Below are positions 32,907 to 56,554 of a stretch of DNA of 64,000 nucleotides, piece by piece; position 1 is the first letter of the stretch; each line of letters begins with the position of its first letter. This DNA comes from Neisseriaceae bacterium TC5R-5 (GTDB lineage: Bacteria > Pseudomonadota > Gammaproteobacteria > Burkholderiales > Chromobacteriaceae). Below the pieces are notes generated by a model that ran no database searches, was not told the DNA's origin, and worked only from the letters and a program-made list of their open reading frames with translations. A program made the position numbers and the translations under genes. Where the stretch lies: positions 1-64,000 of the forward strand of contig JACCFC020000011.1 in NCBI GenBank assembly GCA_020830965.2. The letters are read 5' to 3'.

Positions 32907-32982
32907 TGGTAGGTCGTGCGGGATTCGAACCTGCGACCAACGGATTAAAAGTCCGCTGCTCTACCAGCTGAGCTAACGACCC
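32907..32982 (-). tRNA. tRNA-Lys(UUU), downstream copy
   Basis: A 76-nt cloverleaf on the minus strand starting GGGTCGTTAGCTCAG and ending with an encoded CCA. The anticodon TTT is at 32947-32949, the T loop reads TTCGAAT, and the acceptor stem GGGTCGT pairs with ACGACCT (G-T wobble). The gene sequence is identical to the copy at 33020. Confidence 0.98.
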
Positions 32983-33019
32983 TTACTCAAGTCTCTTGTG
33001 TGTTTCCATCACTGGAAAC

Positions 33020-33095
33020 TGGTAGGTCGTGCGGGATTCGAACCTGCGACCAACGGATTAAAAGTCCGCTGCTCTACCAGCTGAGCTAACGACCC
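33020..33095 (-). tRNA. tRNA-Lys(UUU), upstream copy
   Basis: A 76-nt cloverleaf identical to the copy 37 bp downstream, with anticodon TTT at 33060-33062 and encoded CCA. The shared promoter is at 33113-33141 and the shared terminator at 32821-32848, so both are cut from one precursor. Confidence 0.98.
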
Positions 33096-54633: not shown

Positions 54634-54666
54634 AGACAAAATGTCTAACAATTGCGATTGGACATT
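54634..54666. promoter_or_regulatory. Palindromic operator candidate upstream of leuA
   Basis: AATGTCTAA (54640-54648) and TTGGACATT (54658-54666) form a 27-bp inverted repeat with one mismatch. A smaller perfect palindrome AGACA-AAA-TGTCT (54634-54646) overlaps its left arm. A possible promoter, TTGCGA (54652-54657), 16 nt, TAAATA (54674-54679), lies across it, so a bound protein would block RNA polymerase. The region is shared with divergent psd. Confidence 0.5.
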
Positions 54667-54751
54667 GCATTTTTAAATAAATTGCTATTTTTATTTGACT
54701 AAACGTCGGAAAAAACATAGGATTAATGTGAATTTATTGCAGGAGCACATG

Positions 54752-56554
54752 ATGCAATTAGACATTGAACGCCTGATCTCAGATTTTGGCGGGCCAAGCA
54801 AACTGGTTACTGATCTCAATAATCTGTTCAGCGACGAACCAGTCAGCCGGGCAGCTGTTTATAAATGGCGCGAACGCGGCACCTTACCCTTGGCCCAACT
54901 TAATAAGCTGGCCGGTCTGGCCGCCAGTCAAGGCAGAAACTTTAATTTTAACGACTATCTGATCAACAACAGTGATAAGGAAACAGCCATGTCAGCAGCA
55001 GGTAACAACCGCAATATGGGTGACCGCCTTTATATTTTTGATACCACCTTGCGCGATGGTGAACAATCACCTGGCGCCGCCATGAGCAAGGAAGAAAAAA
55101 TCCGTATCGCCCGCCAGTTGGAGCGCCTGGGTGTAGATGTGATTGAAGCCGGCTTTGCCGCCGCCAGCCCCGGTGACGCCGATGCCATTCACGCTATTGC
55201 TGAAGTGATCAAAGAATCCACCGTCTGTAGTCTGGCGCGCGCTAATGAACGAGATGTACGCGCTGCTGGCGAAGCCATTCGCCCCGCGGCACATGGCCGC
55301 ATCCATACCTTCATCGCGACTAGCCCTATTCACATGGAAAAGAAGCTGCGCATGACGCCTGATGAAGTGGTCGCCGCCGCGGTAAACGCCATCAAGATCG
55401 CACGTGAATATACCGATGACGTCGAATTTTCAGCCGAGGACGCCTTGCGTTCCGACATCAATTTTCTGGCCAGAATCTTTGGCGAAGCTATTAAAGCGGG
55501 TGCCAGCACACTGAATGTTCCCGACACGGTTGGCTATGCGGTACCCCAAGTCACTGAAGCCTTCTTTCGCGAACTCATTGCCAAAACCCCTGGTGGAGAT
55601 AGCGTAATCTGGTCGGCCCACTGCCACGACGATTTAGGCATGGCGGTCGCCAATAGCTTGGCAGCAGTACTCGGCGGGGCACGCCAGGTGGAATGCACTA
55701 TCAATGGTCTAGGCGAACGGGCGGGCAATGCCAGCTTGGAAGAAATTGTGATGGCAGTTAAAACCCGTAAGGATATTTTTAAACTGGACTCCCGCGTTGA
55801 TCCGACACAGATTGTGCCAGCCTCCAAGCTGGTTTCTACTATCACTGGCTACCCGGTACAACCTAACAAAGCCATTGTTGGTGCCAACGCGTTTGCACAC
55901 GAGTCGGGTATTCATCAGGATGGTGTGCTCAAACATAGGGAAACCTACGAAATCATGTCAGCTGAATCAGTAGGCTGGAGCGCCAATCGCCTCACCTTGG
56001 GCAAACTGTCTGGCCGCAATGCCTTCCGTAGCAAACTGATTGAATTGGGCATCGTACTTGATAGCGAAGAAGCCTTGAACGCCGCGTTCGCCCGCTTCAA
56101 AGACCTGGCTGATCGCAAGCGTGAAATTTTTGATGAAGACCTGCATGCCCTGGTATCAGACGAAATAGTCGGCCAGCAGGACGACTACAAATTTGTCTCG
56201 CTGAAAGTGCAGACCGAAACCGGCGAAGCGCCAGTAGCGAATATCGTCTTCATTCATGATGGTGATGAACAACATGCCGAATCCAGTGGTTCCGGCCCAG
56301 TGGACGCCGCCTTCAAAGCGATAGAAAGCGTCACACACAGCCAGGCAGAGCTACAACTGTACTCGGTAAACGCCATTACCAAAGGCACCGAATCCCAGGG
56401 AGAAGTCACCGTACGACTGGCCCGCGATGGCCGCATCGTCAATGGCCAGGGTGCCGATACCGATGTCATCGTCGCCTCGGCCAAAGCCTATCTGTCAGCG
56501 CTAAACAAGCTGCTGAGCCAGCAGCCTAAAGTTCAGGCACAAGGCATGGTTTGA
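54752..56554 (+). CDS. leuA: 2-isopropylmalate synthase with N-terminal HTH-like domain
   Basis: First step of leucine synthesis: acetyl-CoA plus 2-oxoisovalerate gives 2-isopropylmalate. The enzyme part (from about residue 80 of 601) shows [28 protein letters not shown] (metal ligands), NGLGERAGN and the C-terminal LeuA regulatory dimer domain, the site of leucine feedback. In front of it, with no stop codon between, are about 75 residues resembling a small helix-turn-helix ([33 protein letters not shown]). CAGGAG supports the ATG at 54752; AAGGA supports a second start at 54989 giving normal-length LeuA. I recall such domains beside isopropylmalate synthases but cannot verify it. Confidence 0.93.
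54977..54991 (+). promoter_or_regulatory. Internal ribosome site and start for short LeuA
   Basis: AAGGA lies 7 nt before the in-frame ATG at 54989 (M-S-A-A-G). Initiation here would give a 522-residue enzyme without the HTH part, so one gene could make two products. Confidence 0.5.

Follow-up and report, generated by a model that had tools for sequence, protein, structure and literature searches.

As listed in Table 1, the window (the whole stretch of 64,000 nucleotides that was analysed, from Neisseriaceae bacterium TC5R-5) contains a leuA gene whose product starts with a helix-turn-helix (HTH) domain. From the ATG at 54752 the frame is free of stop codons up to 56554 and runs through the HTH segment and a linker into a full 2-isopropylmalate synthase (LeuA); the mechanically listed open reading frame of this gene begins at a TTG at 54695. 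The first-pass annotation had described a stop-free frame leading from this ATG through an HTH-like segment of ~75 residues into a complete LeuA, and both the frame and the profile matches confirm this. A profile search of the HTH segment, which the annotation had proposed, gave a match to NF046037 (carph-isopro) of 64.3 bits, above the cut-off of 38, over residues 5-64 (profile positions 1-53 of 54). In Pfam, HTH_17 and P22_Cro matched below threshold, P22_Cro with 12 bits against a gathering cut-off of 30.2. The LeuA part scored above threshold with NF002087 (880.7 bits, cut-off 729) and TIGR00973 (681.9 bits, cut-off 598.7), and its allosteric LeuA_dimer domain is complete (135.2 bits, 131 of 131 positions). 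Proline dehydrogenase and P5C dehydrogenase domains are absent, Pfam showing LeuA domains only. The fusion is real, and the gene is an in-frame fusion of a metabolic enzyme with a DNA-binding domain. Elsewhere in the window, a tandem pair of tRNA-Lys(TTT) genes is located at 32907-33095.

Table 1. Features of the leuA locus, with positions in the window
Feature	Position	Strand	Remarks
O1, upstream dyad ACAGACAAAATGTCTAA	54632..54648		8/10 consensus letters; same dyad near -130 in relatives
27-bp inverted repeat of the first-pass annotation	54640..54666		right arm of O1 plus the extra half-site
Extra half-site TTGGACA, between O1 and O2	54658..54664	+	found by eye; also in many Chromobacteriaceae promoters
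O2, promoter dyad TTTGACTAAACGTCGGA	54694..54710		9/10 consensus letters; left arm contains the -35
Likely promoter: -35 TTGACT, 17-nt spacer, -10 TAGGAT	54695..54723	+	promoter search; spacing in relatives
HTH-LeuA gene	54752..56554	+	600 aa plus stop; open frame, profile matches
Cro-like HTH domain	54752..54949	+	residues 1-66; NF046037, structure model
Variable linker with internal start region	54950..55018	+	alignment of 17 full-length proteins
Internal ATG whose ribosome site is the stronger one in the window	54989..54991	+	Shine-Dalgarno (SD) energy -6.2 kcal/mol
Internal ATG whose position is conserved in relatives	55016..55018	+	SD energy -3.8 kcal/mol in the window

A structure model of the HTH domain reached a pLDDT of 85.8, and the nearest known folds in Foldseek were the Cro proteins of phages N15 and Xfaso 1, a weak match (E ~1) in which the domain differs by being fused to an enzyme. 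The full-length model (pLDDT 62.9, linker below 50) was too poor to read the packing geometry of the HTH and the enzyme. As the annotation had suspected, the domain pairing is already known: the domain is named carph-isopro (NF046037) at NCBI, a name that nods to isopropylmalate synthase, so it is already in a database. The name, together with the LeuA and CarA fusions, suggests that the curators saw this domain on carbamoyl-phosphate and isopropylmalate synthases. NF046037 only names a domain; this analysis adds the operators and their spacing in pairs, the internal start, and the fusions to ArgA and an aminotransferase described below. Full-text searches of open-licence papers found no report of this leuA regulation.

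Of 61 relatives, 39 have the domain, among them every one of the 37 genomes searched from the family of the window, and 38 of the 39 matching genomes have the long frame, the exception (G027) having a frame of 79 aa. A stop codon between the two parts, which would have spoken against the annotation's idea, is absent in 42 of 43 named loci, where the HTH reads through into LeuA; these loci come from Chromobacterium, Vogesella, Aquitalea, Pseudogulbenkiania, Paludibacterium, Crenobacter, Iodobacter, Chitinilyticum, Leeia, Aquaspirillum, Laribacter and Eikenella, among others. The exception, from Paludibacterium denitrificans (L069:3001-3210), is frameshifted downstream of the HTH but keeps its internal LeuA start, and a sequencing error is possible. 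In a tree of 57 of the 58 non-redundant HTH-bearing sequences and 24 HTH-less LeuA sequences, all HTH-bearing rows fell within one group of 61 rows (support 92/81), which also held four HTH-less rows. The tree requires three state changes, a number compatible with one gain followed by losses.

Among the loci read, 97 had an HTH-leuA gene with both parts, and 58 were left after removing near-copies; a locus with a 458-aa frame (L098) was excluded since it had no LeuA motif. The element conserved in their promoters is a 17-bp dyad, TTNGAC-N5-GTCNAA, that was first spotted by reading the promoters. At a level of at least 8 of its 10 letters, it is present in all 58 non-redundant promoters (121 sites; 5.4 in shuffled sequences), at a level of at least 9 in 48 (67 sites; 0.5 in shuffled sequences), and in perfect form in 25. 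Sites with at least 9 letters have a density of 5.35 per kb in the promoters versus 0.037 elsewhere in these loci. Because the pattern was picked after the data were seen, we also counted all 4-base dyads, and in this unguided count GACA-N3-TGTC ranked first, occurring in 26 of 58 promoters compared to 7 for the best shuffled dyad. The promoters usually have a pair of sites, one near -130 (O1) and the other near -58 (O2), and in 53 of the 58 each of the two has at least 8 letters. O2 falls below 8 letters in 5 of the 58, and its strength varies among species. The TTTGAC of O2 also serves as the -35, and the right arm of O2 sits in the promoter spacer. A -10-like hexamer peaks at a spacing of 17 (19 of 50 promoters; 0-5 at other spacings), and at a level of at least 4 and spacings of 16-19, it is seen in just 24 of the 50 promoters with TTGAC. 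Within the window alone, neither the promoter (1 found, 1.3 expected) nor the dyads (29 matches at no more than two mismatches, 20.9 expected) exceed chance, so that the case for operators is a comparative one.

The 27-bp inverted repeat that the first-pass annotation had placed over the -35 is present, and its pattern has its sole exact match in the genome at 54640-54666, but it lies upstream of the TTGACT at 54695 and does not overlap it. As an operator this palindrome was rejected, since the unit that is conserved in the relatives is the 17-bp dyad; conserved operators do exist there, as the annotation had anticipated, but with a different dyad as the unit. Of note, the half-site TTGGACA also occurs within the conserved codons of MQLDI (ATG CAA TTG GAC ATT, 54752-54766), where coding and operator sequence possibly overlap. 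Operators for psd were considered as well and rejected, as a psd match was present in just 17 of the 58 loci, at varied distances (with only 1.5 kb of upstream sequence in some loci, a few psd genes further away may have escaped the search).

When O1 and O2 were assigned with a weight matrix, the distance between them was 41 bp in 1 promoter, 53-54 bp in 3, 61-66 bp in 10, 71-76 bp in 40 and 83-84 bp in 4 of the 58 promoters, and the spacings cluster near whole helical turns. The best period over the 17 distinct spacings, which share ancestry and hence are not independent, is 10.55 bp, a fit that is equalled by 0.0002 of random draws. With letter counts instead (53 promoters with both sites at 8 or more letters) this figure is 0.0008, and ties give an off-phase distance of 46 bp in 3 promoters, for which the weight matrix gives 73 bp. 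A periodic spacing would be expected if the protein bound cooperatively, or looped the DNA, on one helix face. In a study of the lac repressor, which loops DNA between paired operators, repression varied with helical phasing over spacings of 57.5-155.5 bp (PMC1762422); most O1-O2 spacings are 53-86 bp. The lac repressor is a dedicated tetrameric repressor, whereas for LeuA it is the spacing that suggests a loop.

As controls, we collected 30 loci of the same order, dropped 4 without a LeuA motif, and kept 26 HTH-less LeuA-type loci, among which two are shorter LeuA relatives (L225 and L226) and one has only ~100 bp upstream (L207). Within 400 bp, none of the 26 has a dyad with at least 9 letters, and 6 have one with 8 letters, which is about the chance rate. 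The same is seen between two congeners, of which one (G103) carries the HTH and the dyads, and the other (G057) neither. Dyads in the promoter of the enzyme's own gene, as for an autogenous enzyme-repressor, were thus found at 58 of 58 HTH-leuA genes, with these 26 loci as comparison. A leucine regulon was rejected. Exact dyads are not enriched genome-wide, numbering 1-5 per genome in 37 genomes of the family and lying below a reversed-pattern control in 34, equal to it in 2 and above it in 1. Dyads with one mismatch are not enriched in the genome of the window either (69 versus 201 for the reversed control). Upstream of leuC, no site with at least 8 letters was found in 17 of 17 genomes with HTH-leuA, and one was found in 2 of 8 other genomes compared. 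Since leuC lacks the dyads and there is no genome-wide enrichment, the sites do not mark a regulon.

All 58 linkers contain an internal Met before the enzyme core. The SD energy at this Met averages -6.7 kcal/mol and is -5 or lower in 52 of 58 genes, compared to an average of -1.9 kcal/mol for 425 in-frame ATGs inside the enzyme, 12% of which are at -5 or lower. In the window, the ribosome site that had been claimed for the LeuA start at 54989 was recovered, with the energy given in Table 1. An SD core is also found at the outer start in 93% of the 58 genes. Judged by their ribosome sites in these genes, both starts look used, in agreement with the earlier proposal of a long and a short form from one gene, and the internal Met with its SD sequence suggests a second, HTH-free product. 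The closest solved LeuA structure, 3rmj, has no HTH part, and some LeuA proteins may have been annotated or crystallised from the internal start alone.

Similar HTH domains are fused to three other, unrelated enzymes, each with a dyad of its own at the promoter. We opened 23 long frames with weak domain matches (L100-L102, L123-L142), and every one is a fusion to a class-V aminotransferase, found in other families of the order, with BhcA as the best NCBIfam match (210-221 bits, under the cut-off of 650). The genome of the window has no close aminotransferase of this kind (best E 4.5e-4, 29% identity). An internal Met is present in 23 of 23, with an SD energy of -5 or lower in 21, and all 23 promoters contain TGTCAAA-N5-TTTGACA, with at least 12 of 14 letters, at -34 to -92. 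N-acetylglutamate synthase (ArgA), first seen as locus L231, carries an HTH in 17 of 81 genomes from one order, and these 17 belong to a single gammaproteobacterial genus (17/18; L257-L273). Of these, 13 promoters were read, the start pattern having missed 4, and all 13 have a TTGC-N7/8-GCAA dyad with at least 7 of 8 letters near the start; a second dyad lies 73-74 or 82-86 bp upstream in 12. ArgA repeats the paired, phased layout seen at HTH-leuA. Within 200 bp, the dyad is absent from all 16 HTH-less ArgA genes, and in HTH-ArgA itself no internal Met was seen and the start has no clear ribosome site. In five loci (L296-L300), the HTH is fused to the small subunit of carbamoyl-phosphate synthase (CarA), and all five promoters contain TGGGAA-N5-TTCCCA (11 or 12 of 12 letters) at -69 to -73. 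In four of them, a second copy lies 39-55 bp upstream (39, 40, 40 and 55), not cleanly phased. Two scanned aminotransferases score 36.0 and 36.8 bits (whole-protein) with carph-isopro, around its cut-off, and ArgA scores 32.9, below it, so that common descent of the HTH domains on LeuA, the aminotransferase, ArgA and CarA appears likely.

The reading that we favour, with a probability of roughly five in six, is that HTH-LeuA is an autorepressing enzyme, of which the long form would bind O1 and O2 and the short form would be enzyme only. Comparison of the relatives supplies its basis: the in-frame fusion, the conserved dyads and their dependence on the HTH, the periodic spacing, and the internal ribosome site. 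Starting at 54752, the long form would bind the two 17-bp dyads of its own promoter. At O2 it would cover the -35 and thereby block RNA polymerase, and O1, on the same helix face, would assist, either because the bound proteins touch and cooperate or because a single LeuA oligomer holds the DNA in a small loop. The start in the linker would yield HTH-free enzyme from the same mRNA, so that the dose of repressor and the dose of enzyme could differ. We infer that the HTH is the binder, that it represses rather than activates, that the DNA is looped, and that both forms are produced. Leucine might tune binding via the C-terminal domain, an idea based on the presence of LeuA_dimer. The idea of autoregulation, put forward in the first-pass annotation, receives strong comparative support from conserved dyads that are missing where the HTH is missing, and autorepression of leuA appears strongly supported.

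The link between this HTH and the dyads does rest on comparison, and a regulator encoded in trans might bind the dyads, with the HTH of LeuA having an unrelated role, e.g. as a protein-contact module. We consider this improbable, because dyads with 9 or more letters are missing in every HTH-less LeuA-type locus, including the congener of an HTH-bearing species, and because the sites are neither enriched genome-wide nor present in front of leuC in the HTH-leuA genomes. In addition, different HTH fusions pair with different dyads, the strongest point in favour of binding by the fused HTH.

A site over the -35 and the promoter spacer is the usual place for repression, and this is the position that O2 occupies with its left and right arms. 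This disfavours the view that HTH-LeuA activates leuA through O1, with or without repressing it as well, which we regard as quite improbable, although it would suit the position of O1, a good way upstream of the -35, and the species-dependent strength of O2. Least probable of all is that only the short enzyme is made and that the upstream HTH frame is a relic or barely translated. The strong internal ribosome site, the lack of an HTH part in 3rmj, and the frameshift in P. denitrificans, which would leave just the short form, could be read in this way. However, the HTH has dN below dS in all 12 pairs with computable dS (a thirteenth pair has pN 0.11 and pS 0.80), the frame is kept across a variable linker in all but one of the 43 named loci, and the outer start mostly retains its SD core.

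Few enzymes are known to act also as their own repressors, PutA being the usual example. BirA and NadR carry an HTH on a biosynthetic or salvage enzyme that senses its own product or substrate, and they control other genes of their pathway. They differ from HTH-LeuA, which has another HTH type, another enzyme, and sites at its own promoter only. Trifunctional PutA is described as a metabolic enzyme with an N-terminal DNA-binding domain that represses its own regulon (PMC5293562), i.e. the same principle of an enzyme with its own N-terminal DNA-binding domain. PutA is catabolic, uses a ribbon-helix-helix domain and alternates between DNA and the membrane, whereas HTH-LeuA has a Cro-like HTH, is biosynthetic and has an internal start.

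A wider reading, to which we give even odds when all its parts are taken jointly, is that these proteins form a class of self-repressing biosynthetic enzymes, in which Cro-like domains of a single broad type would have been joined separately to the front of LeuA, ArgA, CarA and a class-V aminotransferase. Each fusion would have its own operator, of similar dyad geometry and often in two copies about whole helical turns apart. The enzyme oligomer would loop the promoter and read the end product via its existing allosteric site, and in LeuA and the aminotransferase the internal start would split the doses. The arrangement is seen on enzymes with which the synthesis of leucine, arginine and carbamoyl phosphate begins, as well as on an aminotransferase, each with its own operator. 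This suggests that evolution can repeatedly turn a repressor domain of phage type into a means of feedback control over a pathway. The arrangement also predicts the DNA that each domain binds, and the fusions form a natural collection for studying how the sequence of an HTH determines that of its operator. In two further loci (L294 and L295), a carph-isopro domain (63 bits in L295) fronts a protein with a likely membrane helix and a coiled coil, possibly a membrane-tied DNA-binding protein.
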